A stretch of DNA of 64,000 bases, taken from NCBI RefSeq assembly GCF_022569295.1, contig NZ_JAKFIA010000002.1:410001-474000 (forward strand). The letters run 5' to 3'. The position numbers were made by a program, and so were the translations under genes. This stretch comes from Pedomonas mirosovicensis. GTDB lineage: Bacteria; Pseudomonadota; Alphaproteobacteria; Sphingomonadales; Sphingomonadaceae. Of the stretch, positions 8,009-22,014 are shown in pieces; position 1 is the stretch's first letter; each line of letters begins with the position of its first letter. The notes under the pieces were generated by a model. That model made no database searches, was not told the origin of the DNA, and saw nothing but the letters and a program-made list of their open reading frames with translations.

Positions 8009-10657
8009 CTACTCTGTTTTGTCAGCCATCCTAGAATTTTTTCGAATGGTCAGGCGAACAGTGCGGCCGAGCGGATCGATTTCGTCGCGGCTGTATCCGG
8101 CCGGAATGCTGCCGTCGCCAAAGGTAACCCGACGATAGCTGTCGAAAAGGTTTTGAACATCGAGCGAGACTTTCAGATTTTTTATCCACCCCTGACCGCT
8201 CAATGAATCGAAGATGCGGTAAGGTTCAATGTGCATCGAGAGATTGTGCGTCATCGACGGCTTGAAATGAAAATCTCCTGAAGGTGTGGTGCCGCGCAAG
8301 CGCGAGGGGCCCGTCCATCTGGCGTTCCAGCTCGCGCCCAGTCCCCGCTTCCCGACCGTAGCCTGGAACGAGAGAGTGTGGCGAGCCTGGCCGCCATCTG
8401 GCCCGAGTTGATCGATTGGCGGGACGCCGGGCCGGATCAGCAATTCGTTCTTCAGGCGCCAGTGATGGTTGAGCGAGGCGGTTACCAGAACGGGGTCTGC
8501 CGGTCTGGCCTGCTGTCCGTCCCCTCCGGCCTTTCGCCCTGACTGCCAGCGCAGCGTGATGCCGGATACCAGTTCGGTGGCGGTGTCATGGGCGATATTG
8601 ACCGCGCGGGCATCGACCGCGATCAGCCGCCCCGCCGCATCGCGCGTCACCCGTTCCGGAAACGCCGCTTCGATTGCGGGGGTCAACTCCGGAAATGCCG
8701 TCACGCCGCCTTTGGCGACTCGCTGGCGATAGCCGATGTTCAGCGACAGATCCTGGTTGCCGAACGGCCGCACCTGTGCGTTCAGGGCAAGGTTTTGCTG
8801 GCTGCCGCGCCCAAGGCTGGGGTTCCCGCCGATGATCCACACGGGCTCGGCCATTTCCTGCCGGGAATAATCATAGATCCGGCTGATGGTCGAGATGACC
8901 GGACCATCAAGCTGTTCGAAGGAGGGCGCCGTCTCGATCTGCTCGAGAGACCCGCGCAGTTGCAGAACGGGGCTTGGCGACCAGGTAAAGCCGCCGCCGT
9001 ATCGCTTTTGCAGGGGTGTGTTCGATTCTGCCTGGCCGCTCATCGAGAGATCGAGGGTCAGGTCTCCCAAGACGCTGGAATCCTCTTCCTCGCGGCGGGA
9101 CAGTGGCAGGCTGAGCGCTATCTGCCCATCCGCCCGCTCGCGCGTCGTCTTGAGCGGCGGCGCCGGGCCGAGAAGGCTGTCGCTCCGCTGGCTGCGGGTC
9201 TGGTTACGGCTCCCGTTCAGGGAAAGATTGGTGGTGAGGGGGCCGGCGGGCAGGTCGATAAGCGTCCTTGAGACATTGAGGCGGGCGCTGAGATTTTCCC
9301 CGCGCGAGTGGTTGCGGTTGCTCAGCAGCAGGCGCTCGTCCCATGGGCCGTAGGGGTTGAAGTCGGGATCCCCGGCGTTGACGAGGGCCTGGACGCGGCC
9401 TACATCGACGCCCTGCTCCAGAAGGTTATCGCTCCAGGTGCGGGCGTACCGGGCGGAGAAATTGGTCTGCCAGCCGCTGATCTTGCCCGAGAGCGTGAAC
9501 GAGGCGCCAAGCGATTTCGACGTGTTGTCGTTCCGCAGCACCTGCTCGCCCGCGAATGGGCGCGTCAGCATCACGTCGCCAGCGAAAGGCGACCAGGGGC
9601 TGCTTGCCGGGATAAGGATGGAGGCCATCGGCAGCCCGCGCCGCCCGTGACTTGTGTTGCGGGTCGCGTTGACGCTGAATGATGCTGAAAACTCCCCCAG
9701 CGGACGGGTTGCGCCCGCGTTGAGCGAGAGGTTGCGTCCGGAGGGCGTCAGGGTTTCGTAATCGTTGGGATCGACCGGGTGCGAGCGGTTTGCGGTGGCG
9801 GCGAAATCGGCCAGCGTCGGTGTTCCCGCGAGCGCTTCCGGCGGTATGGCGGCATAGGTCACGATCCCGCCCGCGGCGAGGCTGAGCGCCGGGTCGATTT
9901 CCGCCCCGTCGGGGCTGGAGATATAGCCCATGCGATCGGCTGGGCCGCCGCGTGGCGGAACGTTGCGCGCGCTCTTGCGTAAGGCGCTGTCGGCGCTGAT
10001 GCGCGCCTGTACGTTCCAGCGGGTCGGCCTGTCTATGATCAGCCGTCCGGCAGACAGGCTGCCGCCATATCGCCCGCCCCTGGTTGCCCATGTCACCCCC
10101 GCATCGGCGGTGAGGCTGGAAAACTTCTTTTTCAGGACCAGGTTGACCACGCGCTTGCCGGAGGGCTGGCCATACTGGGCGGCGGCCTCGGGTGCCAGCA
10201 CGGCAAGGCGTTCCAATGCCTCGGCCGGGTAGGACAGGAACGACCGGTCAAACCCGGCCGGTTGCCCGTCTATAAGGATGACCGGCTCCTCGCCTCCGGC
10301 GTCGATGAACGGCTCCATGCGCCCGAGCAGGTCCTGTATGCTGTCGGCGCCGAACGGGGCAATCTGTTCTTCGTTGAATTCGGTTTCGGCTTTCACCCTG
10401 GCGTCGCCATAACGTTTGGCGGTGACGATGATGTCGTCGCTTGCCTTCGGGGCGCCGCCAGCCGCCGCGCGGTCATGAGGTGCCGCCGCCGCGATCCCTT
10501 GTGACGCCGCCACCGCGCTGGTGGCCCCGCTGTCTGCCTCCGCCCTGGCGTCGCGGCACGGTAGCCCGAGGGAGGCGGCAAGGGAAAGCAGCCCGTGCAG
10601 GGCGATTTGTATTACGCCGAACCGTGTCACTCTCACCAAGATGCGGGCGCCTTCCAT
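8009..10657 (-). CDS. TonB-dependent receptor, divergent plug type (TBDR1)
   Basis: An 882-residue outer-membrane protein. After a hydrophobic leader come a TonB-box-like DDIIVTAKRYG (about 74-84) and a plug with PVILIDGQPAGFDRSFLS and AAQYGQPSGKRVVNLVLKKK. The standard plug string VLRGPQGTLYG is absent, so this is an unusual subgroup. The remainder alternates like a beta-barrel and ends RTVRLTIRKNS plus seven residues, so the usual terminal aromatic is not last. There is no STN domain. It is the last gene of the minus-strand locus, 83 bp after small protein S1. Two strong hairpins lie in that gap, so its expression may be set below that of S1. A GTG shortly after the ATG is an alternative start. 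Confidence 0.85.
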   Translation of the reverse strand: MEGARILVRVTRFGVIQIALHGLLSLAASLGLPCRDARAEADSGATSAVAASQGIAAAAPHDRAAAGGAPKASDDIIVTAKRYGDARVKAETEFNEEQIAPFGADSIQDLLGRMEPFIDAGGEEPVILIDGQPAGFDRSFLSYPAEALERLAVLAPEAAAQYGQPSGKRVVNLVLKKKFSSLTADAGVTWATRGGRYGGSLSAGRLIIDRPTRWNVQARISADSALRKSARNVPPRGGPADRMGYISSPDGAEIDPALSLAAGGIVTYAAIPPEALAGTPTLADFAATANRSHPVDPNDYETLTPSGRNLSLNAGATRPLGEFSASFSVNATRNTSHGRRGLPMASILIPASSPWSPFAGDVMLTRPFAGEQVLRNDNTSKSLGASFTLSGKISGWQTNFSARYARTWSDNLLEQGVDVGRVQALVNAGDPDFNPYGPWDERLLLSNRNHSRGENLSARLNVSRTLIDLPAGPLTTNLSLNGSRNQTRSQRSDSLLGPAPPLKTTRERADGQIALSLPLSRREEEDSSVLGDLTLDLSMSGQAESNTPLQKRYGGGFTWSPSPVLQLRGSLEQIETAPSFEQLDGPVISTISRIYDYSRQEMAEPVWIIGGNPSLGRGSQQNLALNAQVRPFGNQDLSLNIGYRQRVAKGGVTAFPELTPAIEAAFPERVTRDAAGRLIAVDARAVNIAHDTATELVSGITLRWQSGRKAGGDGQQARPADPVLVTASLNHHWRLKNELLIRPGVPPIDQLGPDGGQARHTLSFQATVGKRGLGASWNARWTGPSRLRGTTPSGDFHFKPSMTHNLSMHIEPYRIFDSLSGQGWIKNLKVSLDVQNLFDSYRRVTFGDGSIPAGYSRDEIDPLGRTVRLTIRKNSRMADKTE

Positions 10658-10672
10658 CCGCTACTCAGGGAA

Positions 10673-10700
10673 GGCGGGCGCACAGTGTTGTGCGCCCGCC
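10673..10700 (-). promoter_or_regulatory. 12-bp perfect stem-loop between S1 and TBDR1
   Basis: GGCGGGCGCACA (10673-10684) pairs with TGTGCGCCCGCC (10689-10700) around a 4-nt loop. It lies 40 bp after the S1 stop and 16 bp before the TBDR1 start codon, both minus strand. No U-run follows, so a processing, stabilising or attenuating hairpin fits better than a full terminator. Confidence 0.7.
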
Positions 10701-10710
10701 CAGGGCCTCG

Positions 10711-10727
10711 CGTAACGGGACGTTACG
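10711..10727 (-). promoter_or_regulatory. Second short hairpin in the S1-TBDR1 gap
   Basis: CGTAACG (10711-10717) and CGTTACG (10721-10727) are separated by 3 nt. It lies immediately upstream, in transcript order, of the 12-bp hairpin. Together the two occupy most of the 83-bp intercistronic gap. Confidence 0.55.
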
Positions 10728-10740
10728 AGGGGCTTCCACC

Positions 10741-11181
10741 TTACTCCGAGGCCGACCCTTCAATGGAGCAGTCGCCCGTACCGGAGTCTGCGGGCGGCAG
10801 GACGGCATCAATATCGAGGGTCGTTCCGCTCCATGTGCCGGAGACGTCGCCTTCGCAACCGCCAGAAGTGATCGTGGTCACCTCAACGCCGTAAATCGTG
10901 TAGGTGCCGCTGCTGCTGCCCGGCGAGGATTCAGTAATCGTTACGGGATACGGCCCGCCTAAGTCCACAAAAGCGCAGAGAAAGTCTCCCGGCACCAGTG
11001 AAATATACGCCAGGTCCGGGGTGCCGGAGGTATCGATCGTGATCTCAATATCGCATGTGAGCGTGAGGCCCTTGTGAACAACCACCGTGCCATAGAACGG
11101 GCCGGTGGGCACTGCGGCATTCGCAACGTGTGGAATGAAGAACGCAGACGCCAACATGGCGATTTTTGCAAGCTTGTTCAT
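10741..11181 (-). CDS. Small secreted four-cysteine protein S1 (unknown function)
   Basis: A 146-residue protein with a clear signal peptide (MNKLAKIAMLASAFFIPHVANA). The mature part is beta-rich and acidic with Cys43, Cys69, Cys109 and Cys138. It is a paralogue of S2 at 14969. Shared blocks are GTVxVxKGxxLxC, PGxxLC, GGPY, SGGCxGD, WxGTTLxID and LPPxxSG. The C-x pattern faintly recalls PraB-type alkane-oxidation activator proteins, but I would not assign that. It has a GGGGGAG ribosome site and its own AT-rich upstream region, following a terminator that separates it from TBDR2. Directly downstream lies TBDR1. It could be a periplasmic or surface partner of the receptor, or a ligand carrier. 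Confidence 0.8.
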   Translation of the reverse strand: MNKLAKIAMLASAFFIPHVANAAVPTGPFYGTVVVHKGLTLTCDIEITIDTSGTPDLAYISLVPGDFLCAFVDLGGPYPVTITESSPGSSSGTYTIYGVEVTTITSGGCEGDVSGTWSGTTLDIDAVLPPADSGTGDCSIEGSASE

Positions 11182-11209
11182 GAATCTCCCCCATGTCGTA
11201 TTTGAGGCT

Positions 11210-11223
11210 GCACATTATTGTGC
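11210..11223. promoter_or_regulatory. Inverted repeat in the S1 promoter region
   Basis: GCACA and TGTGC flank TTAT, 29 bp upstream of the S1 start. The 10-mer CATTATTGTG inside it recurs at 11341-11350, where it opens the tandem octamer array. The surrounding 11205-11310 stretch is markedly AT-rich and probably contains the S1 promoter. Confidence 0.4.
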
Positions 11224-11311
11224 AATACGACTATGGGTCGTCATAAAGTAAATTTCCAACATATTGTAAAAATGTAAATTAAATAGTCAAACAAGTATTT
11301 TAAAACAAGGG

Positions 11312-11340
11312 CGGCGGCCCGCTGAATAAGCGGGTCGCCG
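11312..11340 (-). terminator. Intrinsic terminator of TBDR2
   Basis: A 12-bp stem, CGGCGGCCCGCT (11312-11323) with AGCGGGTCGCCG (11329-11340), contains one G-T wobble and a 5-nt loop. On the minus strand it is followed by CCCTTGTTTTAAAATAC. It lies about 75 bp past the TBDR2 stop and isolates S1 transcription. Confidence 0.75.
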
Positions 11341-11342
11341 CA

Positions 11343-11374
11343 TTATTGTGTTATTGTGTTATTGTGTTATTGTG
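11343..11374. repeat. Four exact tandem copies of the octamer TTATTGTG
   Basis: The octamer TTATTGTG is repeated four times without interruption between the TBDR2 stop (11415) and its terminator. Eight-base units are not codon multiples and are prone to slippage, so copy number may vary between strains. It is transcribed as the TBDR2 3' end. Confidence 0.95.
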
Positions 11375-11414
11375 TTTGTCTATTTCATGACATGCATGGC
11401 TATTGTTGTATTCA

Positions 11415-14400
11415 TTAAAACTTCTTGGAGATGCTGAAGGCGATGATGCGTGGATCGAGCGTGAACACGTTAGTGGTCAGGCCGGTGTCGTCGCTGTTGA
11501 CGAAGGTGTCGGTGATCGGCGTGTTGTTGAACACGTTCTTCACGTAAACCTGCATGGTCAGCTCCGACTTTGGGCGCGTGTAGGTCATGGTGAGGTTGAC
11601 ATAATCCCAGGCCTTCAGCCGGTCGAACTCAGTGTTGTAGATTCGCGCATAGCTTTTCGACTGGCGGTAGTAATCGGCGCGGAAGGTCAGATCCCAATCG
11701 TCGGTCTCGGAGAAGAAGGTGTACTGCGCCCCGATATTGACGGTAATGCGCGGTGCGTTGGGCAGTTCGTTCCCGGTTAGGTCGGCGGCAAAGCCGCGTC
11801 CGCCATTGGGTGCGCCGCTTCCGCCCTCTTCGATATTCATGCCGACCGTATCCGGATTATAGGGCGCGAAGGGATCGTAGGTAAAACCGTACCGCTCATT
11901 GAGCATAAACCCGGAATTTACCTTCGGATCGAAGGTGCCGACCCGCGTCGATCCGGGACACAGCGCGGCAAGCGCCTGATGAGGTGGCAGGGGGCTGGAC
12001 AGGACTTTTTCCACAAAGGCGCGCGGCGCGATGCAGTTGGAAGGAACCTGAACCCAGGGGCGCAGCGTCACCCAGTCCGAGTCGCCCTGGGTGCGGTTCA
12101 TCACGTCGATCGACTGCGATCCCTTCTTCAGCCGTGTTTTCAGATAGCCGACAGTGCCGTCGAGGCGGAAGGCGCGGGTCGGCCGCCACGCCGCTTCAAG
12201 TTCCAGGCCCCAGTTGATCGCATCGAAATTCTCGTTGTAGGCAATGCGGTCAACAATCTGGGAAATCTGATAATCCTTGTAATTGTAGAGGAAGCCGTTG
12301 GCATTCAGCGTCAGGCGGCCGCCGTCGAAGCTGTTCTTCGTGCCGATTTCAAGGGACGTGACATATTCCGGTTTGAACGTCTGCGGCAGGTACTGGTATT
12401 GCACCACATCCGAGTTAAAGTCGACGCGCGGCGGGTTGACGCCGCCGCCCTTGTAGCCGCGGGCTGCCGAGAAATAAATCAGCGTATCGTCGGTGAAGCT
12501 CAACTCCGGCTTCCAATCCAGCACCGCGCGGCCGGTAAACTTGCCCCAGGTCTGCTCGATGCTGTCCAGCGCCGGATAGCCGCTGTTCACCCGGCCGCCC
12601 GTGCTATCGCCCACAATCCTCCCTGAATCGATGCCGCCGCCCAGCAGCAACTGGCTGGGAATCTGGTCGGATACCTTCTTATCCTTGGTATAGCGCAGGC
12701 CGAGGGTCAGATTCAGGTTGTCTGCCAGTTCCCAGTACAGTTCGCCGAAGGCGGCCCAGCTTTTGATCCTCACGCCATTCTGGCTGAGGAAGTAGTTGTG
12801 GCCCTGATTGTCCAGGCTGTCGATCGGGTTGCGGTCGACGTAGGGGCATTCACGCGATTCATCGCCCAGTTCGCATGGCAGAAGCATCATGCTGTTTCTG
12901 GGATCTCTGCTATAAAACCAGTCCGCAATAAATGTGAACATGTTATTGAAGACGTAGTAATCGTCCTGCGATTTGAAATCCAAGTAGTTGGCGCCGATGT
13001 TGAAGTTAACCGGCCCCTCGAAACTGGATTGCAAGCGCAACTCTTGCGACCATTGACGGTTACGTGAGCGACTGAGATCAGCGGACAACATACGATCCGA
13101 GCAGCCAAGCTGTGGATCACAGAAAATTCCGCCCGGCGTCGGCCCCTTGTTGACTTCGTTTATTATATTGCCGCGAACATCCACTATGGGTTGGGCGGTG
13201 TCATTGAACAGTGGATTGGTGACGAAGCGGTTATAATCCTGCATCGAATAGAAGCGGTCGCGCGCATAGGCGGTTTGCGAGACCAATTGCAGCCCGTCCG
13301 CCACGTCGAAATCCATATTAAACTGTACGACATCGTTCTTTGCCCGGAATACCGGATCGATGCTGGTCGAGATCTCGCGCAAGTCGCGGGATTGGGTGAC
13401 TCCCTCAAAAGGGTCGCCTGACTTGATCGGACGGGCGGGGTCGCCACGCCCGCGAGGGCGAGTGGGATCATACCAAGCGCCAAGGGTGATATTGTCAGCA
13501 GGATGGGTTATGTAGACCAGACTGTCGCCATTGGGCGTGCCATAGGCGGCATCATCGTAAAGCGAGCCAGGCAGACAGCCTTGGCTCAGCTTCCCGCGTA
13601 TACGCGGGTCGGTAATCGGGATATCTCCCACCATCTCCAGGCCGGGATCGGTGGTGCACAGTTGCTTGCCGGTGCGGGAGCGGTTGTCGTTCTCCTCGAA
13701 ATGCTGCCAGATGACGCTGGCCCGGAAGCGGTCACTCGGCTCCCACTGGACCGAGGCCCGCGTCGACCACAGGTCGCGGTCGTTGACCCGGTTTTCCGTG
13801 AAGGTGTTGTAATCATAGCCGTCGCGCTTGGTCCACGCGCCGGCCACGCGGACCCCGAGGGTGTCCGTGATCGGCACGTTAAGCATACCGCTCAGGCGCT
13901 TGGACTTGTAGTTGCCGAGCTCGCCCTTGATCTCGCCGCCGAACTCGGGCTCGGGCAGCGCCGGGATCATGTTGACGACACCCGCCGTCGCGTTGCGGCC
14001 GTAGAGCGTGCCCTGCGGGCCGCGCAGCACTTCCACCCGCGCCATGTCGAAGAATTCAGACTCAAACAGGCGGTTGCGGACCAGCGGTGTGTTATTGAAG
14101 CTGACGGCGACGGCAGGGTCGCTCGACGCCGAGATCGCCTTGGTCCCGACCCCGCGGATCGAGAAGTTATACATGCTGAAATTGCTTTTGGAGAAATTGA
14201 CGTTCGGGATCGCCCGCAGCAGCTCGGAGCCGCCCTCGATCTTGCGGTCGTCAAGTCCTTCCGCCGTCAGCGCCGTAATCGCGATCGGCACGTCGCTGAT
14301 CCGTTCCTCGCGCTTCTGTGCGGTCACGATGATATCGGCGAGAGTGGCTTCTCCTCTGCGCGCCCCGGCGCTGGGGGCAGCCTCATCAACCTCGCCGGCG

Positions 14401-14735
14401 CTCGCTCCGGCAGCGGGCTGGACGATGAATACGCCCGACTGGCCGACGCGGACGCTTAATCCGGACTCTGCCAGCAAGCGGTCGATCCCGGCGCGCGCGC
14501 TGAATTGACCCGAAAGCGCCGCACTTGTCTTGCCGCGAACGGCCGCCGGATCGAAGGTGACCTGCTGGTTCGCGGCGCGCGCAAAGGCATTGAGCGCGCT
14601 GCCGAGATCCTGAGCGGGAATGTTGAATTCGTAAAGCTGTTCGCGTGTTTCTGCGGCGATGACCGGCTGTGCCGCGATGACGATGGCGGTAAGTGACGTG
14701 GCAGAAACGAGAATGCCTCGCAGAGACCTGCACAT
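11415..14735 (-). CDS. TonB-dependent receptor with STN signalling domain (TBDR2)
   Basis: A 1106-residue outer-membrane receptor. It has a signal peptide (1 to about 28), an STN domain (about 34-107, LYEFNIPAQDLGSALNAFAR), a proline/alanine linker, and a TonB box and plug (134 on, IIVTAQKREERISDVPIAI; VEVLRGPQGTLYGRNATAG). A 22-strand-type barrel ends IAFSISKKF with a terminal Phe. The STN domain is the hallmark of transducers that contact a FecR protein, and FecR and FecI genes lie upstream in the same orientation. Its barrel is longer than most (about 850 residues). The ribosome site AGGGGGA sits in a hairpin loop just before the ATG. The ligand is unknown. Confidence 0.93.
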   Translation of the reverse strand: MCRSLRGILVSATSLTAIVIAAQPVIAAETREQLYEFNIPAQDLGSALNAFARAANQQVTFDPAAVRGKTSAALSGQFSARAGIDRLLAESGLSVRVGQSGVFIVQPAAGASAGEVDEAAPSAGARRGEATLADIIVTAQKREERISDVPIAITALTAEGLDDRKIEGGSELLRAIPNVNFSKSNFSMYNFSIRGVGTKAISASSDPAVAVSFNNTPLVRNRLFESEFFDMARVEVLRGPQGTLYGRNATAGVVNMIPALPEPEFGGEIKGELGNYKSKRLSGMLNVPITDTLGVRVAGAWTKRDGYDYNTFTENRVNDRDLWSTRASVQWEPSDRFRASVIWQHFEENDNRSRTGKQLCTTDPGLEMVGDIPITDPRIRGKLSQGCLPGSLYDDAAYGTPNGDSLVYITHPADNITLGAWYDPTRPRGRGDPARPIKSGDPFEGVTQSRDLREISTSIDPVFRAKNDVVQFNMDFDVADGLQLVSQTAYARDRFYSMQDYNRFVTNPLFNDTAQPIVDVRGNIINEVNKGPTPGGIFCDPQLGCSDRMLSADLSRSRNRQWSQELRLQSSFEGPVNFNIGANYLDFKSQDDYYVFNNMFTFIADWFYSRDPRNSMMLLPCELGDESRECPYVDRNPIDSLDNQGHNYFLSQNGVRIKSWAAFGELYWELADNLNLTLGLRYTKDKKVSDQIPSQLLLGGGIDSGRIVGDSTGGRVNSGYPALDSIEQTWGKFTGRAVLDWKPELSFTDDTLIYFSAARGYKGGGVNPPRVDFNSDVVQYQYLPQTFKPEYVTSLEIGTKNSFDGGRLTLNANGFLYNYKDYQISQIVDRIAYNENFDAINWGLELEAAWRPTRAFRLDGTVGYLKTRLKKGSQSIDVMNRTQGDSDWVTLRPWVQVPSNCIAPRAFVEKVLSSPLPPHQALAALCPGSTRVGTFDPKVNSGFMLNERYGFTYDPFAPYNPDTVGMNIEEGGSGAPNGGRGFAADLTGNELPNAPRITVNIGAQYTFFSETDDWDLTFRADYYRQSKSYARIYNTEFDRLKAWDYVNLTMTYTRPKSELTMQVYVKNVFNNTPITDTFVNSDDTGLTTNVFTLDPRIIAFSISKKF

Positions 14736-14740
14736 GATTG

Positions 14741-14759
14741 ACTATCTCCCCCTGATAGT
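14741..14759 (-). promoter_or_regulatory. Hairpin presenting the TBDR2 Shine-Dalgarno in its loop
   Basis: On the minus strand ACTATC and GATAGT form a 6-bp stem whose 7-nt loop is exactly AGGGGGA, the ribosome site of TBDR2 (ATG at 14735). This could expose or modulate the site. Confidence 0.5.
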
Positions 14760-14785
14760 GTTGCGGTTCTTTCGGGTCCGCAATC

Positions 14786-14799
14786 ACAGGGTAATACGC
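14786..14799 (-). promoter_or_regulatory. Motif GCGTATTACCCTGT upstream of TBDR2, candidate sigma-factor site
   Basis: On the minus strand this 14-mer lies 51-64 bp before the TBDR2 ATG. Near-identical copies precede S2 (15442-15455) and the sigma gene itself (17212-17224). Such restriction to one locus is expected for the target of its own ECF sigma factor. It lies within a diverged duplicate intergenic region (14736-14968 versus 15398-15617), which otherwise holds no gene. Confidence 0.55.
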
Positions 14800-14968
14800 A
14801 TAATCGTCACGATGACACACCGGCCGCTCTATATATTATTCTATAAAGGCGGTTACCTTTTGCGCGAATTCCAGGATTCCGTAGCGTTATCTGCTAGGGC
14901 GTGCTCTTTGGGATATGCCCATCAACCAGAATATATTCTACCCGATGGGGGGCTCCCGATCCTGCATT

Positions 14969-15397
14969 TCAGGAATCCCGAGGAGCGTCGCTAAGTTCGG
15001 CGGTTCCTTTGACGATGCATGGCGAGCCGCTGGTCTTGGGCGGAAGGGTGGTGTCAATCTTCAGGGTCGTGCCATCCCACTGCGCCTCGATATCGCCGGC
15101 GCAGCCGCCGGAAATGGCCGTGGACACGTCGACGTTCCTGAGCCTGACGGTGCTGTCGCTTACCTCGATATCGTATGGGCCGCCCCTGAACGATACCATG
15201 TTGCACAACAGGTTGCCTGGGCTGAGATCAACCGTTGCCTTGTTGTTGGCGACTTCCACTTTGATCCGGCAGGAGAGCTGCTTGCCTTTCTTGACGGTGA
15301 CGGTGCCTGCCAGTTTGCTGTCCGGCAGCGTTGCATGGGCGGTGTGCGCGCCCAAAAGGGCCGATGACAGAACGACGAGTCTTGCAAGCCTTTTCAT
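14969..15397 (-). CDS. Small secreted four-cysteine protein S2 (unknown function)
   Basis: A 142-residue protein with signal peptide MKRLARLVVLSSALLGAHTAHA. The mature part has Cys43, Cys65, Cys99 and Cys127, in register with those of S1. It shares GTVTVKKGKQLSC, GGPY, SGGCAGD and WDGTTLKIDTTLPP with S1 but lacks the serine-rich insertion S1 has before its third cysteine. It is basic where S1 is acidic. It lies between FecR and TBDR2, and its upstream region is a diverged duplicate of the one before TBDR2. A role as accessory protein or signal partner of the STN receptor is inferred from position only. Confidence 0.82.
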   Translation of the reverse strand: MKRLARLVVLSSALLGAHTAHATLPDSKLAGTVTVKKGKQLSCRIKVEVANNKATVDLSPGNLLCNMVSFRGGPYDIEVSDSTVRLRNVDVSTAISGGCAGDIEAQWDGTTLKIDTTLPPKTSGSPCIVKGTAELSDAPRDS

Positions 15398-15441
15398 GAA
15401 TCATCCTCTGACGGTGCCGCAGATCTTATCTGCGCGCAGTT

Positions 15442-15455
15442 ACAGGGTATTACGC
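15442..15455 (-). promoter_or_regulatory. Motif GCGTAATACCCTGT upstream of S2
   Basis: This is the second copy of the locus-specific motif, 45-58 bp before the S2 ATG. A leader hairpin follows it at 15418-15434 (CGCAGAT/ATCTGCG, 3-nt loop). The 220-bp region 15398-15617 also has a hairpin at 15503-15521 and no gene. Confidence 0.55.
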
Positions 15456-15617
15456 GCGATTGCCGCGACGGCACACCACGGCGGGCCGCCTATATTTTTG
15501 CCGCATGAGGTGGCCTCATGCGCGAACGCCAGGTTTCCGTAACGTCAAGGCCCGCTCGCAACTTTCTGCGGGACGAGCCTGAACCTGAATATATTTTTTC
15601 TGATGGGGGGGCGATTT

Positions 15618-16670
15618 TTAGTGGCTGCTGGCCAGCACCAGTTTGCCGGGTTCGCGTGTTGCATTGATCGGATAGAGCGCGGTCACCCCCTCGATGAAGG
15701 CATCAACATCGCCCGCCTCGAAAACGCCGCTAATCTTATAGGACGCGATGCGCTGATCGCGGACGACGATGCGGTTCTTTGCATAGCGGTTCATTCGTTC
15801 GGCGGCGAGTGCAAGTGGCTCGCCTTCAAAGCTGAGAAGGCCGGATTCCCAGGACAGCGAGTGCGTCAGGTCTGCTTCGATGACATGCGCTGCGCTGCCG
15901 GCGGTGGAGGCGATCAACTCCTTTCCCGGACTCAACACGAGGGCGGGCTCGGTGTATTCGGGAATCGACGGCTGTGGATCCGGCGATCGCATGGGCGCCA
16001 GCACCTCGTCGTTCTCCGGGTGATCGATGACCTCAACCTGGCCTTCATAAAGTACGACGCGCACCTGCTCCGGCAGTAATTCGACGCTGAATGACGTTCC
16101 CGTCGCGACCGTCACGCGGTTGCGTGCGCGCACGGTGAAGGGGCGCAGCGGATCATGGACCACATCGAACTTGGCGCGTCCGGCAAGGAGTTCGAGGTTT
16201 CGGCGGTCATCATCCAGCCGGACATCGACTGCGGTCGCGGCATCGAGCGTCAGTCGCGAACCATCATCGAGCATTACGACGCGCCGTTCGCCAATATCCG
16301 TCCTGTAATGGGTCGTGCCATCATGCAGGAGAAGGATTGTCAGGGCCACCAACAGGGCGAGGCAGGCGGCGATGCCGGTGGGGCAGCGCAGGAACGCGCT
16401 GCGCGCCCAGCGCCTTGCATTGAGCTTCCGCAGCGATTCCACTGCCTCAGCGCGATGCCGGATCATTTCAGGGGTATCGGTGATGGCGTCGATCCCCTCC
16501 CATATCGCCACGGCCTCTTCAAAAGCCCGCGCATTATGGGAGTCGGCGGCAATCCAACGGTCGAACGCAGCCTGCTCGTCGGCATCGAGGCGCGCATCGG
16601 CCAGTCGCATGCACCAGAAGGCGGCGCGCTCATCTCTTTTGTCCGATATGGTGTGAATCGGCTCGTTCAT
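15618..16670 (-). CDS. FecR-family anti-sigma/sigma regulator
   Basis: A 350-residue inner-membrane protein. Residues about 14-56 form a DUF4880-type cytoplasmic helical domain (AAFWCMRLADARLDADEQAAFDRW). A single membrane segment lies at about 96-116. The periplasmic FecR domain runs 120-215 (YRTDIGERRVVMLDDGSRLT), and a C-terminal STN-like segment spans about 270-345 (LSFEGEPLALAAERMNRYA). It overlaps the sigma gene by 4 bp and is translationally coupled to it. It would relay occupancy of TBDR2, through the receptor's STN domain, to the sigma factor. Confidence 0.93.
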   Translation of the reverse strand: MNEPIHTISDKRDERAAFWCMRLADARLDADEQAAFDRWIAADSHNARAFEEAVAIWEGIDAITDTPEMIRHRAEAVESLRKLNARRWARSAFLRCPTGIAACLALLVALTILLLHDGTTHYRTDIGERRVVMLDDGSRLTLDAATAVDVRLDDDRRNLELLAGRAKFDVVHDPLRPFTVRARNRVTVATGTSFSVELLPEQVRVVLYEGQVEVIDHPENDEVLAPMRSPDPQPSIPEYTEPALVLSPGKELIASTAGSAAHVIEADLTHSLSWESGLLSFEGEPLALAAERMNRYAKNRIVVRDQRIASYKISGVFEAGDVDAFIEGVTALYPINATREPGKLVLASSH

Positions 16671-17185
16671 TCGCTGTCTTTCCTGGCGCAGGTCATCAGA
16701 TGGACCATGGCGCGCGCCACATGTTTCTCGACCGCGCTGCGCGATATGCCGAAGCTTTCCGCGATGAGGCGCTTCTCGATATTCTCGACACGATACAGGA
16801 CGAAGATGGCGCGCGTCCGCTCCGGCAACTCGGCCAGCCCGGCGGCCAGCACGGCGAGCGCATCGCGCGCGGCTGTAATTTTCTCGGGATCGAGCCAGTC
16901 GATCCCCTGGCCATAGAGGCTGCCAACCGCCTCGCGACTGTCGGTCCGCACCCTTGAGCGCCGCGCACGATCACGCAGCAGATTGGATGCGATCTGGAAG
17001 ACATAGCCTGCATGCAAATCGGGATCGCCTTGGGCGCCGCCAAATACGCGCGCGAAAACGTCCTGAGTCAGGTCCTCAGCCTCGGCATGATCGTGAACGC
17101 GTTTCAGAAAGAACGACATCAACGCCGGACGCCAGCGCCGATAACGTCGCGTCAGTTCATTCTCGCTGTCGGCCTGAAGGTGCAT
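16667..17185 (-). CDS. FecI-type ECF sigma factor
   Basis: A 172-residue protein with region 2 (AEAEDLTQDVFARVFGG, residues about 35-51) and region 4 (ELPERTRAIFVLYRVENIEKRLIAESFGISRSAVEKHVARAM). It belongs to the iron-starvation/FecI branch by length and pairing with FecR. It is first in the minus-strand locus: FecI, FecR, S2, TBDR2, S1, TBDR1. The motif GCGTATTACATGT lies 27-39 bp before its start, so autoregulation is plausible. Whether the signal is iron or some other ligand cannot be told. Confidence 0.93.
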   Translation of the reverse strand: MHLQADSENELTRRYRRWRPALMSFFLKRVHDHAEAEDLTQDVFARVFGGAQGDPDLHAGYVFQIASNLLRDRARRSRVRTDSREAVGSLYGQGIDWLDPEKITAARDALAVLAAGLAELPERTRAIFVLYRVENIEKRLIAESFGISRSAVEKHVARAMVHLMTCARKDSE

Positions 17186-17211
17186 GCCCTTTCCAATGAT
17201 TATTGGTCCGA

Positions 17212-17224
17212 CATGTAATACGCG
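17212..17224 (-). promoter_or_regulatory. Motif GCGTATTACATGT upstream of the FecI-type sigma gene
   Basis: This is the third and slightly shorter copy of the locus motif, 27-39 bp before the sigma-factor start. The rest of the 252-bp gap 17186-17437 shows an AT-rich patch (17260-17290) with ATAGTT/AACTAT arms, and no convincing gene. Confidence 0.45.
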
Positions 17225-17437
17225 CGAACTATGCCATCACGCAGCACCAGGGGCCAAGAAAATAGTATAATAGTTTGCCTGTACAACTATGTGGAGGTTC
17301 TCGGCCTTTGAGGGCGCCTCGCCACCGTGAGAGCGGCAAGGCGTTCGTCTGGCCGGGATGGGGCATCTGGTGGAAGGCGATGATGCGGAGACTGCCATGC
17401 CGTAACAGCCTCGGAAGGGGAAAGGGAGTCGCGCCGT

Positions 17438-18970
17438 CTATTCGGCGGGCTCGACGTAGATCGGGTTGCCGACGAGCAGCAGGCGGCCATCCTTTCCACG
17501 CACGTCGACCCTCAGCCAGTGGCGCCGGCCGTCACCCGTCCAACGGAAGGGGAGCCGTTTCTCGGGGTTGCCTGTCCTGACGATCGGGAGACCGAGGCTT
17601 GTCTCTTCCCGGCCGTCGGCGATCACAGCCAGGCGCCCTTCGCTTATGCCTTTGACCGTCACCGTGACCTCGGCCGTATCGCCTTTGTTAAGTCGCAGCG
17701 TCCCACCCATTGCGACCTCACGGCCGCCGGCCCGCGCGGTCATATCGAGCAGGCGGTTGCGCGTGCCCTCGATGTCGATGAACACTCGGCCCGAGCGCAG
17801 GCCATCGAGCATACCCTTGACCGACAGCTCGGCCATATAAATCACGGTCGTCGGCGACCCGATGGAACTTGGCTGGTCGAGCGGCCGGCCCGCATCGTGA
17901 TTGTCACTACCGCCGATCGCGGTCAGATGCTCGCCCGCATTCAGCCGCTCGTGCCAGAAGGCGAAGCCCTGAAGCGGCGATTCTGCGGACCCCGTCTCAG
18001 ACATCGTCCCACCGTTGACCACCTCAACGGCCTGCGCCGCGCCTGGGGCCAGGCCCTCGATCCGCCAGCCGCATCCCATGCAGATCTCACCCGAGGGCGC
18101 GCCTGGGTGGTTGATCGAGATGACGCCGCCCGCGGCTCGCGCCGCATCGATCCATCTGGCGGCTGCGGCATTGCCAGCAAGGGTCCGGAAGTCCAAAAAC
18201 CCGGTCACACCGAACACATTGGCGTGACCCCAGAAGGTCGTGATCTCCCGTCCCGGCACCAGGAGCAGCTTATCGTAGGCGGGCTGCAAGGCCCGCATCG
18301 CCGCATAATGGGCGGTGGTGTTGTGGTCGGTGATGGCAATAAAATCGAGACCGCGCTTCGCTGCCGCGGCAACCGTGCGATCAACAGGGCAGGGGACGCG
18401 CGCGCCGCTCTGGCTCGCGCAGCGGCCGTCGCTGTTGCCGGTATGGGTGTGAAGATCACCCCGGTACCAGCCGGCAGCGACCTTGAGGGGAGCCTTGGCA
18501 AACTCGGTCGGCTGAGGCGCTCGTTCAATTATGATCCGTGCCTCGTAGCGAGCGGTGGCATTGGGGCGAATGTTGGGTGTGCCCAGGAGCAGATGCCAAC
18601 GCCCGGCTGGCAGGGGGCCGGCCAGGAAGCCGGGAGAGGCATCCTCGACAGCGACGGTGAAGCCAGGATGGCTGCCACCGCCCCAGCCCCGGAACCGCTG
18701 CGGGTCGAGGAGTCCCAAGTCGATGACCGACTTCTGCGCCTTGCCGTCGTAGGAGAAGTTTACGCTGATGCGCGTCGCCCCTTCCGGCACGTCGAAGGGC
18801 ACCTCGCGGTACTGTTCGTGGTCGGCATGGGTGAGCGTACCGGTGAGGACAAACTCGCCCGAAGTCGCTGTCCCGCCCGCGCTTGATGCGGGCGAGACGG
18901 CGGCGACAGGAGCGGCGACCAGCGCCAGGGACAAGGATACAAGAAGAGCGCTGAGCCGCCGCATAGTCAT
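17438..18970 (-). CDS. Exported CehA/McbA-type PHP-fold metallohydrolase
   Basis: A 510-residue protein with a signal peptide (1 to about 24) and a beta-rich N domain (about 40-150) similar to pre-peptidase C-terminal modules. A PHP-type metal site follows: GDLHTHT (171-177), TDHN (214-217), REIT and GHAN (241-251), INHPGA (285-290) and GGSDNHD (352-358). The CehA/McbA family includes carbamate and ester hydrolases as well as uncharacterised phosphoesterases. It begins 12 bp after the stop of TBDR3, so it is last in a FecI-FecR-TBDR operon. It probably processes the imported ligand in the periplasm. Confidence 0.88.
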   Translation of the reverse strand: MTMRRLSALLVSLSLALVAAPVAAVSPASSAGGTATSGEFVLTGTLTHADHEQYREVPFDVPEGATRISVNFSYDGKAQKSVIDLGLLDPQRFRGWGGGSHPGFTVAVEDASPGFLAGPLPAGRWHLLLGTPNIRPNATARYEARIIIERAPQPTEFAKAPLKVAAGWYRGDLHTHTGNSDGRCASQSGARVPCPVDRTVAAAAKRGLDFIAITDHNTTAHYAAMRALQPAYDKLLLVPGREITTFWGHANVFGVTGFLDFRTLAGNAAAARWIDAARAAGGVISINHPGAPSGEICMGCGWRIEGLAPGAAQAVEVVNGGTMSETGSAESPLQGFAFWHERLNAGEHLTAIGGSDNHDAGRPLDQPSSIGSPTTVIYMAELSVKGMLDGLRSGRVFIDIEGTRNRLLDMTARAGGREVAMGGTLRLNKGDTAEVTVTVKGISEGRLAVIADGREETSLGLPIVRTGNPEKRLPFRWTGDGRRHWLRVDVRGKDGRLLLVGNPIYVEPAE

Positions 18971-18982
18971 GACTCCGTTGCC

Positions 18983-21910
18983 TTAGAACCGGTACATCAG
19001 CGCCGCGCGATAAGTGCGGCCGATCAGCGGACGGGCGATGAAGGTGTTCGCGCCCGCGTCCGCATTCTGCAGTTCGCCTGCGCGCGGATTGCCCTCGGTC
19101 AGGCCCAGGGAGTTGGTGAGGTTGTCGATATAGCCGTAGAACGACAGCTGCTCGTTGATCTGCCAGCGCCCGCTCAAGTTGACCGCCTCATAGGACGGCA
19201 GCCGTACGGAATTGGCGGTATCCACATAGCGCTTGCCCTGATGCTCGATAGCCGCCTGCAGGCGCAGGGCGCCGTTGAACAGGTTGACGCCCGGCACCAC
19301 GCGCAGGCTGAACTTCGGCACACGGATGAGCTGATTGCCGTCGTAGTCGTTCAGCTTGCCCGAAGCGTCCGTATAGGTCAGCCCCTTGTACTTCGGTTCC
19401 TGGAAAGTGACGGTGCCGGCCAGGTCAAACCAGGTGGTCGGGCGGATGACGGTCTCGAGTTCGAGGCCGAAGGTCTGGGTGTCGGCGTAGCGCGCTTCGG
19501 ACACCGAGGCGCCGGTTTCAAGGTCGAAGCGGTAGTTGCTGAAGCCCACGTTGTTGTATTTCGTCCAGAAGCCGGTCGCATAGACATCGACCAACGGGCT
19601 GCTGAACTTGAAGCCCACTTCGCCCAGATCCATCGTCTGCGTGTCGGGCTTGGCCGCCGCGTTGGTGATGTAATTGCCAAGGCTCGGCATGCGGCTGGCG
19701 GCGGTATAGCGGGCGAACATGCCCATCCGGTCATCGAATTGGTAGTTCACGCCGACCGTCCAGCCGAGCTTATCGAAGCTGTCGTCATAGTGGCCGAACA
19801 CGCCGGTGCCGGTCTGGATCTGCGAGGTGGGAAGCGAGCCCAGGTTCACGGTCTGCTTGGTCTCGACCCGACCCCTGGCCGTCATCTTCTCCCAGCGCAG
19901 ACCGCCATCGATCCGCAGGGCATCGGTGACCTGCCATTCGTCAGCCAGATAGAAGGCGTGGGTGGTTTGCTCGCCCGAGGCGTTTTCCCACTCATAGCCG
20001 TAGCGCCAGATGCCATTGTCCGTTAGCGACGAGACAACATTGCCCGCTGCATCCACCGCGACGAGATCAAGCAGCCGCGCATTGGTCTGCACGTCGAGCA
20101 GCACGGACGAGGAGTAGCGGCTGAAGTCTTCCTGGATGTGGGCGAAGTAATAGCCGAACGTGATGTCGTGGGTGGAAGATCCCAGCTCGATGCGGTGCGA
20201 GACCTGGGTGTCGCTGATGAATTCCTTCACCGGCATGGTGATGCCACGCAGGCCGCCAACCATGACCAGCCCATTGCCGTTCTGGTTGGCGGTGTTGTAG
20301 ATACCGCCCGGCTCATTGACGTAGCGCAGCTGCAGCCCAGTCGCGCCCGGCACCGAGCCCAGCAGCCCGGCCTGCTGCTCGAGGAAGCTGGTCGCGCTCA
20401 GCAAGGTGTTGGGGTAGACACCGTTGCGCTGGGTCGTCGTGTCGTTGAAGCGCGACGTGTTGACGATCTTCCAGCCGTCCGCCGGCTCGAAGGTAAAGCG
20501 GCCGGTGACTTGCGTGCGCTTGATCTCGGTGCCGCGGGTGTTATCGAACTCGTAAATGCTGCCGTCGCCCATGATCATGTTGATGAGCGAGGTCTCAGGG
20601 CCGGCAACGCTGCCGTGATGCCCATCGAAGCCGGGCACCGCGCGGATCTTGCCATCCGCATCGGTCCGCATGGGAATGCCGGTGTAAAAGGCAACCGTAT
20701 CGTCCACGCGCTTGATGTCCAGCTCGATCGAGCCGCGTTCAAACTCGCGTGACAGGGATGCCCGGATCTGGCCGCCCTTGTTTCCGGTGAAGCCTACGTC
20801 GCGAGCACCATCATAGCTGCGGTAAAAGCCGCCGATCGCCAGCTTCCATTCGCCGATGGGCGCGCCGGTCCAGAAATCAAGGCGGTAGTGGTCATGATCG
20901 CCAACGGTCGCCTTGACCAGGCCCTCTGCCTCATCGCCCACCTTGCGCGGAATGAAGTTGATCGCGCCGGCCGGCGCGTTGGCATAGAACACCGACGACG
21001 GGCCGCCGCGCACTACCTCGATCCGATCGATGGTTTCATCGAGGCGGAAGACCTGGTCGCCGTTCAGGTAGCCGAGCGCCGGGTCGTGCTGGATGGGAAT
21101 ACCGTCTTCGAGTAACTGGACTGAGCCGAAGCCATCCACCGGCACGCCGCGAGCGCGCACGTTGCCGCTGGCCTCGCCGCCCGAGGCCTCTACCCAGAAA
21201 CCGGGAACCGACTTCAGGGCTTCGGTGACGCTGGTCGGCGCCTGGAGGCGCAAAGTCGCCTCATCGATATTGGTTACCGAATAGCTGGTCTCGGCCTTGG
21301 TGCGGACGCCCGTTCCGGCGCGGCCGGTGACGATAATCTCGTCTAGGCTCGATACTCCGGCTTCGTTTGCGACATCCTGCGCGAGCACGCCGGGCGCCTG
21401 TGTCAGCCCTCCGGCAAGCATGCTGGAGCAGAGCAGCACTTTGGTGGTGGATTTCATCTTTTCCCTTTCGCTGTACGCTAGGCAGCGGCGCTGTCCGCTC
21501 AGCCGATTGGGCTTGCGGATCTGGCGCCCCTTTTCTGGTGATGGACTTTCGCCGGGAGACGCCCGGTCTGCGTTGGCCGTTTCAATGCGGGGACGGCGGA
21601 TGGTGATGGCCTGCGGCGTCATGTCGGCGATTTCGAGGGAGCTGCCTGCCAGCAGCCGCTCCAGCGCCTCCTGCCGCGTCATCCGGCCCCGGACCTTCGG
21701 GCTCCGCAGGGCGGCGGCAGCCTCATAGGGCAGGAGGATCTGCCGGTCCGCCTGACGCGCATATTGGTTGAGCGCGTCAGCGAGCGGTTGGCTGGGGATA
21801 TCAAATTGAACGCTGTCACTTGCCGTCTGCGCCGTGGCTGTCGATGGCAGGATGGCCGGTGCAAGCACCGCCATGCTGACAGACAACGCAACAAGGCAAG
21901 GCGTTCTCAT
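18983..21910 (-). CDS. TonB-dependent receptor with STN domain and a second internal signal peptide (TBDR3)
   Basis: A 975-residue reading frame. Residues 1-28 form signal peptide one and 33-107 an STN domain (VQFDIPSQPLADALNQYARQ). A charged linker (108-151) follows. Residues 152-178, MKSTTKVLLCSSMLAGGLTQ and on to VLAQ, look like a complete second signal peptide with its own ribosome site (AAAGGGAAAAG) before ATG 21457. The TonB box and plug (from 191, EIIVTGRAG; IEVVRGGPSSVFYANAPAG) and barrel end AALMYRF. Either this is a fusion of a stand-alone STN protein to a receptor, or two proteins are made from nested starts. The gene follows FecI and FecR and precedes the PHP metallohydrolase. Confidence 0.88.
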   Translation of the reverse strand: MRTPCLVALSVSMAVLAPAILPSTATAQTASDSVQFDIPSQPLADALNQYARQADRQILLPYEAAAALRSPKVRGRMTRQEALERLLAGSSLEIADMTPQAITIRRPRIETANADRASPGESPSPEKGRQIRKPNRLSGQRRCLAYSEREKMKSTTKVLLCSSMLAGGLTQAPGVLAQDVANEAGVSSLDEIIVTGRAGTGVRTKAETSYSVTNIDEATLRLQAPTSVTEALKSVPGFWVEASGGEASGNVRARGVPVDGFGSVQLLEDGIPIQHDPALGYLNGDQVFRLDETIDRIEVVRGGPSSVFYANAPAGAINFIPRKVGDEAEGLVKATVGDHDHYRLDFWTGAPIGEWKLAIGGFYRSYDGARDVGFTGNKGGQIRASLSREFERGSIELDIKRVDDTVAFYTGIPMRTDADGKIRAVPGFDGHHGSVAGPETSLINMIMGDGSIYEFDNTRGTEIKRTQVTGRFTFEPADGWKIVNTSRFNDTTTQRNGVYPNTLLSATSFLEQQAGLLGSVPGATGLQLRYVNEPGGIYNTANQNGNGLVMVGGLRGITMPVKEFISDTQVSHRIELGSSTHDITFGYYFAHIQEDFSRYSSSVLLDVQTNARLLDLVAVDAAGNVVSSLTDNGIWRYGYEWENASGEQTTHAFYLADEWQVTDALRIDGGLRWEKMTARGRVETKQTVNLGSLPTSQIQTGTGVFGHYDDSFDKLGWTVGVNYQFDDRMGMFARYTAASRMPSLGNYITNAAAKPDTQTMDLGEVGFKFSSPLVDVYATGFWTKYNNVGFSNYRFDLETGASVSEARYADTQTFGLELETVIRPTTWFDLAGTVTFQEPKYKGLTYTDASGKLNDYDGNQLIRVPKFSLRVVPGVNLFNGALRLQAAIEHQGKRYVDTANSVRLPSYEAVNLSGRWQINEQLSFYGYIDNLTNSLGLTEGNPRAGELQNADAGANTFIARPLIGRTYRAALMYRF

Positions 21911-22014
21911 CGTACCCCTCGAACAGGTTCCGGGCGTAGACGAGACGGCCTCGTAATTCCGCCATCGCAGCGGAAGAAAAAATCAGACAGGTCTAGATGA
22001 TGCGTCGCATGTGG

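Follow-up and report, generated by a model that had tools for sequence, protein, structure and literature searches.

What is the role of small secreted proteins that are encoded directly beside receptors of the outer membrane? This question is raised by a cluster of six genes in Pedomonas mirosovicensis. The cluster lies on the minus strand of a stretch of 64,000 nucleotides (contig NZ_JAKFIA010000002.1, positions 410,001 to 474,000), called the window from here on. It encodes, in this order, a sigma factor, a FecR-type regulator, the small protein S2, the TonB-dependent receptor (TBDR) TBDR2, the small protein S1 and the receptor TBDR1. Relatives of S1 and S2, collectively named S here, were found to be kept beside TBDR genes in two bacterial classes. 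All six genes were confirmed as real. Their order and their sigma, FecR and STN domains, read from the DNA alone in a first-pass annotation, were borne out, the domains by Pfam:

16667..17185, minus strand: FecI-like extracytoplasmic function (ECF) sigma factor (Pfam Sigma70_r2 1.9e-9, Sigma70_r4_2 5.8e-11)
15618..16670, minus strand: FecR-type sigma regulator (FecR PF04773 1.8e-20, DUF4880 2.8e-9)
14969..15397, minus strand: S2, predicted PraA-like secreted four-cysteine protein of 142 amino acids, probably an extra copy between FecR and TBDR2 (39% identity to S1; S profile; upstream DNA homologous to that of TBDR2)
11415..14735, minus strand: TBDR2, STN-type TonB-dependent receptor of 1106 amino acids (STN 4.9e-8, Plug 2.5e-15, barrel 2.2e-38)
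10741..11181, minus strand: S1, predicted PraA-like secreted four-cysteine barrel protein of 146 amino acids (AlphaFold2 model; remote PraA/PraB kinship)
8009..10657, minus strand: TBDR1, divergent TonB-dependent receptor of 882 amino acids without STN match (37-59% identical to TBDR1 of 12 other S loci; PirA/PfeA/FepA-type fold by model)

An ECF sigma factor, a FecR-domain protein and an STN-domain TBDR thus occur together, which is the combination that marks FecI-FecR-STN surface signalling.

Association of S Genes with TonB Receptor Genes

Profile searches with S revealed 25 S genes at 22 places; tandem copies were taken as one place, whereas S1 and S2 were taken as two. The 25 genes include one broken copy. 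S was found by profile in 16 of 397 genomes of the same family. A sample of 349 genomes of the phylum contained S in the P. mirosovicensis genome itself and in G516 only, the latter belonging to another class by its kinship label (G and L numbers denote genomes and loci). At 20 of the 22 places, in two classes, S lies next to a TBDR gene; counted by genus, the figure is 8 of 9. The P. mirosovicensis genome yields 43 Plug matches in 3.6 Mb, and a random gene is estimated to adjoin a TBDR gene in about 3 of 100 cases. At a generous rate of 10% the chance of 20 out of 22 is 2e-18 and that of 8 out of 9 genera 8e-8. The genus figure is the fairer one because related loci are not independent. The first-pass annotation had proposed that S1 and S2 are receptor partners and had named a profile search for their neighbours as a check. 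This repeated adjacency and the common promoter-like motif described below support the proposal.

The commonest unit is TBDR2-S-TBDR1, read in one direction and with one S. The FecIR genes stand at its head in L054 and L056 and are divergent in L021 and L022. No FecIR adjoins the unit in L023, L024, L027 and L057, and L059 shows a divergent sigma-FecR pair by eye. Other arrangements are S-TBDR1 (L025, L026, L028), FecIR-TBDR2-S (L058, L061), FecIR-S-TBDR2 (L060) and TBDR2-S (L053, L066); in L065 S and TBDR2 are convergent. At positions 5968-6618 of L065 (G516) a tandem second S copy contains an in-frame stop and is a decaying duplicate.

The count of 16 genomes was obtained with a more sensitive S profile. 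In the first search with S1, 13 genomes matched, of which four (G020, G105, G213, G358) were dropped as weak matches inside frames of about 1100 amino acids. The dropped stretches resembled by eye the N-termini of the carboxypeptidase-regulatory type (Oar-like) and not S, and 9 of 397 genomes were left. Further S genes were missed by the profile and located via their receptors in the same 397 genomes (G066, G154, G261 and a second S in G106). They were excluded from the 20 of 22 because the receptor had been used to locate them. A search of genome contigs with S1 for related loci returned no relative, and tblastn of plasmids gave no match with S1 and three Burkholderia records with the S of L060.

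Receptor Subfamilies and Number of S Genes

TBDR2 of the window shares 50-70% identity with its counterparts at 16 other S loci, among them both receptors of G516 (56 and 50%). The window TBDR at 18983-21910 is only 23% identical to TBDR2. A search of 269 genomes with TBDR2 alone yielded 14 genomes with a total of 18 loci at 48% identity or above, and 13 of the 18 carry S within 1.5 kb. S was found within 1.5 kb of none of the eight TBDR2-like loci at 33-44% identity (Fisher 8e-4, with the boundary set after viewing the list). For TBDR1 the ten best matches all lie in S clusters, nine with S in the 1.5-kb flank and the one of G106 in the order TBDR1-TBDR2-S. No S was present in the 1.5-kb flanks of 20 lower-scoring TBDR1-like loci (L109-L128). 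Only G106 and G154 count as independent for this trend because eight of the ten best matches had gone into the profile. Another TBDR1-type gene of G154 (L167, 721 bits) has no S.

TBDR1 had been described as a receptor with an unusual plug. With respect to Pfam this holds, the Plug match being under the cut-off (E 0.027). The fold itself appears ordinary: the structure model (mean predicted local distance difference test score, pLDDT, 77) matched PirA/PfeA/FepA-type receptors in Foldseek with E 1.6e-22 and a template modelling score of about 0.46. Because of this match, TBDR1 is regarded as a divergent subfamily of the ordinary TBDR fold, as far as a model can tell.

It had also been supposed that each receptor has its own cognate small protein. 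The relatives do not support this. Both receptor types occur together at 13 other loci (L021, L022, L023, L024, L027, L054, L056, L057, L059, L163, L164, L165, L166), among which L165, with a TBDR1 of only 286 bits, and L166, with an incomplete TBDR1 (model positions 516-855), are weaker cases. A single S is present in ten of the 13, and the remaining three (L024, L027, L165) carry two adjacent S between the receptors; the order in L164 is TBDR1-TBDR2-S. One S before each receptor is special to the window among these loci. The DNA upstream of S2 is homologous to that upstream of TBDR2 (local score 54 versus 17.0 ± 2.2 for shuffles, 0 of 300), which suggests that S2 is an extra copy that arose together with a duplicated promoter region.

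Directly upstream of the cluster, at window positions 17438-22980, lie genes for a CehA/McbA-family metallohydrolase (265 bits, cut-off 80) and a TBDR with a weak STN match, and by eye only a FecR-like gene. Judged from these genes, the region is apparently a second surface-signalling unit adjoining the cluster.

Kinship and Predicted Fold of the S Proteins

S1 and S2 are paralogues with 39% identity over 145 alignment columns (E 1e-34). The motifs KGxxLxC, PGxxLC, GGPY, SGGCxGD and WxGTTLxID are readable in both, and their four cysteines align, so that the first-pass description of the pair is confirmed. The signal peptides of both were assigned by eye. All 24 aligned S family members have the four cysteines, as do all 15 rows of an alignment that included four Pra rows. 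His, Met and Tyr are missing from the invariant or near-invariant columns of the 24 S, all of which are Cys, Gly or Pro. Identity of S proteins to S1 is 18-46%, which indicates fast divergence. A third paralogue, S3, is encoded in the same genome (G000:C2:239026-239394; L004 6988-7404). It is a solitary copy, sister of S1 in the tree (97/88), and converges on a cluster with ApbE and flavoprotein-reductase genes.

An NCBIfam scan of 12 S relatives returned PraA for two (best 1.5e-7) and PraB for two. When 24 S members were scanned with E values up to 1, nine matched PraB and seven PraA. Both best matches came from the S of L060 (PraA 1.2e-33, PraB 1.2e-30), which remained just below the curated cut-offs of NF041561 and NF041562 (115.9 bits of 150 and 106.3 of 120). 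No S reached a curated PraA/PraB cut-off, and S1 and S2 had no match at all. Signal peptides can inflate such matches; therefore, the scan was redone on the mature parts of ten proteins. L060 kept 2.3e-31 (PraA) and 3.5e-28 (PraB), followed by L065 (1e-10), L061 (8.5e-6), L066 (9.6e-6) and L023 (1.5e-4). When seven mature S (S1, S2, S3 plus four relatives) were aligned by hhalign to six mature Pra proteins, the probability was 97.3% and E 2.6e-11. The S profile retrieved PraA and PraB of G625 at 3e-15 and 1e-16. A tree of 35 rows unites S1, S2, S3 and the S of L021 with support (99/97). It places the Pra rows of G625, G581 and Burkholderia together with the S of L060 and L165, both linked to TBDRs (fork 90/81, not starred). 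Because of the intermediates, the profile-profile match, the shared cysteines and the tree grouping, S1 and S2 are assigned by sequence comparison as remote members of the PraA/PraB superfamily, joined to it via intermediates and not by a direct match. NF041561 itself matched in four of 279 genomes of the phylum, and the P. mirosovicensis genome gave no NF041561 match.

The AlphaFold2 model of S1, calculated with 24 input sequences, has a mean pLDDT of 88.8, which is low only in about the first 20 residues. It contains eight strands of 7-12 residues each, and the predicted fold is a single eight-stranded beta-barrel without a further domain. Foldseek with this model found nothing below E 0.001 (top match 3rwx, 4.9e-3), and the S profile had no match among the PDB sequences. 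VIA-align placed the model at Z 8-11 to many small barrels, namely designed barrels, the N-terminal barrel of OprF, avidin, fHbp, hemophilin and the C-lobe of TbpB. The hemophilin and TbpB C-lobe barrels scored Z 8.3-10, with the TbpB C-lobe (5kkx) at Z 10.0 and a root-mean-square deviation of 2.4 over 109 residues. That no closer structural relative was listed for the modelled S1 is no evidence of a new fold.

A Promoter-Like Motif in the Cluster

The upstream regions of four cluster genes contain related sites:

17215..17248, minus strand: GGTG-N22-CGTATTAC variant before the sigma gene (same variant before the sigma gene of L166)
15447..15477, minus strand: GGTG-N19-CGTAATAC promoter-like site before S2 (motif scan)
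14791..14821, minus strand: GGTG-N19-CGTATTAC promoter-like site before TBDR2 (motif scan)
11224..11229, minus strand: CGTATT 48 bases before S1, a weak half-site only (hexamer scan)

All four CGTAWTAC sites of the 64-kb window lie in this cluster on the minus strand. A further CGTAATAC is located at window positions 10609-10616, just inside the annotated start of TBDR1. The hexamer CGTAWT occurs 37, 57, 63 and 48 bases before the sigma gene, S2, TBDR2 and S1, respectively, and within 100 bases upstream of just one of the 41 other called genes of the window. On its own the hexamer is marginal: a pattern of equal rarity was shared in 78 of 2000 quads drawn at random from other genes. In addition, of the four upstream regions with the hexamer, those of S2 and TBDR2 are mutually homologous. 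S3 has no CGTAWT within 200 bases upstream.

The bipartite form GGTG-N19-CGTAWTAC is stronger, though it was defined after viewing the sequences. It occurs at four distinct places in 1.24 Mb (168 sequences, overlaps included): upstream of the window genes S2 and TBDR2 and of the TBDR2 genes of L166 and L135. From the shuffled window, with 0.02 N19 sites per 64 kb, about 0.4 would be expected in 1.24 Mb. Two N22 sites are present in these sequences, one upstream of the window's sigma gene and one upstream of that of L166. Presence of the motif tracks the type of sigma factor. Among eleven sigma factors compared with that of the window, those of L166 (70%) and L135 (74% over a stretch of 74 residues) are the most similar; the other nine share 34-47% identity, and their scanned upstream regions contain no CGTAWT. 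The motif is a probable promoter of the cluster's sigma factor, and its common occurrence suggests one regulon.

Genes Accompanying the Relatives

In G625 (L161) the genes for an AlkB-type desaturase, PraA, PraB and FadL follow each other. This order agrees with the alkB-praA-praB-ompP1 cluster described in PMC4542665, where, in the accessible text, PraA and PraB are said to activate alkane oxidation and to have an alkane-solubilising effect. In G581 (L162) a PraB-like gene is flanked by a FadL gene on one side and by HlyD- and MacB-type genes on the other, and in Burkholderia stagnalis an OmpW gene is followed by a Pra-like gene. L164 contains P450 and KshA-type Rieske oxygenase genes. Neither alkB nor FadL is found among the cluster genes alongside S1 and S2.

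A gene of the PF10118 type is located near S in L025, L057, L059 and L060, as confirmed by Pfam, and by eye in L026 and L028. This "predicted metal-dependent hydrolase" is also found, again by Pfam, near alkB-praA-praB-fadL of G625 (L161) and is a common partner. Upstream of the sigma gene Pfam identified TolC and HlyD types in L058, a TolC type in L061 and a MacB type in L060, with further parts recognized by eye. TolC/HlyD- or MacB-type genes recur beside PraA-like clusters in two classes (L058, L060, L061, L162). These neighbours are a possible export route for PraA-like proteins.

Beyond TBDR1 of L023 lie genes of an ATP-binding cassette (ABC) transporter. The top-scoring models for its ATPase and its permease are of heme, B12 and Fe-siderophore types, all under the cut-off. 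L024 and L027 resemble L023 by eye, and the ABC neighbours occur in one genus (g5). ApbE genes are found near S3 and L057 and a PepSY gene near L057.

Proposed Function and Alternatives

We propose that the cluster is an outer-membrane uptake system that senses its ligand and induces itself, with a layout like that of the has operon and a PraA-type carrier in the place of HasA. The chances for this proposal are evenly balanced. S1 and S2 would leave the cytoplasm by their signal peptides and fold as small disulfide-bonded eight-stranded beta-barrels. They would carry or solubilise a poorly soluble ligand and hand it over to TBDR2 and TBDR1. The ligand on TBDR2, with or without S, would move the STN domain, whereupon FecR would release or activate the sigma factor. 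The latter would transcribe its own gene, S2, TBDR2 and probably S1-TBDR1. By analogy with has, S would be the carrier, and it would supply both TBDR2, as transducer and importer, and TBDR1, as an additional importer. The favoured ligand is a hydrophobic organic compound because relatives adjoin AlkB/FadL, OmpW and once P450 and Rieske oxygenase genes.

Several observations weigh against this proposal. No TBDR gene adjoins S3 or the S of L055; the latter lies about 6 kb from a TBDR2-type gene (receptor L136). In five of the 18 TBDR2-type loci (L130, L135, L136, L153, L154) no S lies within 1.5 kb. The motif is absent before the S of L166 and is reduced to one half before S1 of the window. The kinship of S1 and S2 to Pra, as read from the sequences, is transitive: neither protein matches an NCBIfam model significantly, S1 matches no Pfam family and S2 gives two insignificant Pfam matches only. 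In the scan of mature parts the matches of L055 and L058 were lost, that of L054 went down to 0.13, and S1 and S2 had none. The matches of the modelled barrel are generic, so that the fold fits a ligand carrier and does not demonstrate one. The P. mirosovicensis genome contains no PF10118 gene and no match to AlkB of G625, the latter result having no positive control and showing little. Finally, some S loci neighbour iron-type genes.

These neighbours lead to the alternative that the layout is as proposed and the ligand is an iron chelate, heme or a corrinoid, with S as a partner of the hemophore or siderophore-binding kind. Iron carriers are what FecIR-STN systems are best known for, according to the accessible text of PMC9249621. 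The ABC transporter of L023 with its sub-cut-off heme, B12 and Fe-siderophore models, the similar genes of L024 and L027, ApbE near S3 and L057, PepSY near L057, and the resemblance of the S1 barrel to those of hemophilin and the TbpB C-lobe all agree with such a ligand. Nevertheless, we regard it as rather unlikely: the conserved columns of the 24 S lack a likely heme ligand (His, Met or Tyr), the ABC neighbours are limited to one genus, and Pra relatives accompany AlkB, FadL and OmpW. The tight adjacency to two particular TBDR subfamilies, the small compact fold predicted for S and the lack of an exporter in the window cluster would also suit periplasmic accessory factors, that is assembly helpers or plugs of these receptors that bind no nutrient. 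Such a role is improbable in view of the non-TBDR outer-membrane proteins FadL and OmpW beside Pra and of the alkane-solubilising activators of alkane oxidation described, in the part of PMC4542665 available, under the names PraA and PraB. The TBDR2-type loci that do without S within 1.5 kb argue in the same direction. The use of TBDRs by small secreted proteins is well known, and the fast divergence of S would be in line with secreted bacteriocins or signals that enter via the adjoining TBDR and are sensed by the sigma system. This explanation is highly improbable, since S1 and S2 match no toxin family, no immunity candidate is present among the six genes, the proteins are kin of PraA/PraB, and S is kept beside the same receptor type in two classes.

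Extending the carrier proposal, PraA/PraB-type barrels may be widespread secreted carriers of hydrophobic nutrients, a hemophore counterpart for oily compounds, which serve FadL, OmpW and TonB receptors. In sphingomonad-like bacteria they would have been recruited to a sensing circuit with an ECF sigma factor, one carrier supplying both the transducer TBDR2 and the second importer TBDR1. This generalization is put forward tentatively and with more doubt than the proposal for the cluster itself. The accessible text of PMC4542665 gives no mechanism for PraA/PraB beyond the alkane-solubilising effect. Pra relatives fixed beside two TonB-receptor subfamilies, often with a dedicated sigma factor, provide a testable mechanism of capture and hand-over, and the inducer of the sigma factor is a route to the identity of the ligand. 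If the ligand is hydrophobic, a carrier-assisted and sensed route would be added to the question how oily compounds cross the outer membrane.

Comparison with Known Systems

PraA and PraB (NF041561, NF041562; models of 166 and 163 positions) resemble S in their small size, the N-terminal signal-like stretch, the four invariant cysteines and the profile match of the mature part via intermediates. They differ in their company: Pra proper is encoded beside AlkB and FadL, whereas S adjoins TBDRs, with FecIR at some loci and not at others. It had been stated in advance that matching a family whose known role is unrelated would speak against receptor partners. PraA/PraB is indeed a named family, but its role in alkane use is compatible with uptake. 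The names praA and praB have also been given to unrelated genes, as in the case of praB in a catechol pathway (PMC11784303, accessible part). Among the papers listed in the literature search, which covered mostly those open without subscription, none joined this PraA/PraB family to TonB receptors or FecI. As far as this search showed, the parts are known, and their combination and the conserved link between Pra and TBDRs are undescribed.

TBDRs implicated in the detection and uptake of alkanes are OmpS and TOL_0244, by the available text of PMC6304351. The TOL_0244 family is distant from the window receptors: TBDR2 scores 61 bits against a cut-off of 645 and the TBDR at 18983-21910 scores 36. 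In the accessible portions of PMC8560813 and PMC12282271 an extracytoplasmic protein with an eight-stranded barrel, which is a cargo of the type 11 secretion system (T11SS), works with a TBDR partner in hemophilin HphA-HphR and in TbpB-TbpA. The predicted barrel of S is similar to HphA and TbpB in strand number, with generic matches of Z 8-10, and S would likewise work with a TBDR. Unlike them, S is a single barrel and has no TbpBBD match, and none of the six cluster genes matched a T11SS (Slam) gene.

Comparable in layout is the has operon, which comprises a sigma factor, an anti-sigma factor, a TBDR, a secreted carrier and an exporter, and whose carrier participates in signalling (PMC9249621, part of the text). 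The first-pass statement that no system of this composition had been described was too strong, as has shows the same layout and S is remote kin of the named PraA/PraB. HasI-HasS-HasR-HasA-HasDE and the window have in common an ECF sigma factor, an anti-sigma factor, a TBDR with signalling domain and a secreted carrier, predicted in the case of the window, within one cluster. In the window the carrier would be of the PraA family and not HasA, there are two receptors, and no exporter is found among the six genes. In three related loci (L058, L060, L061), TolC/HlyD- or MacB-type genes upstream of the sigma gene are a possible counterpart of the has exporter.

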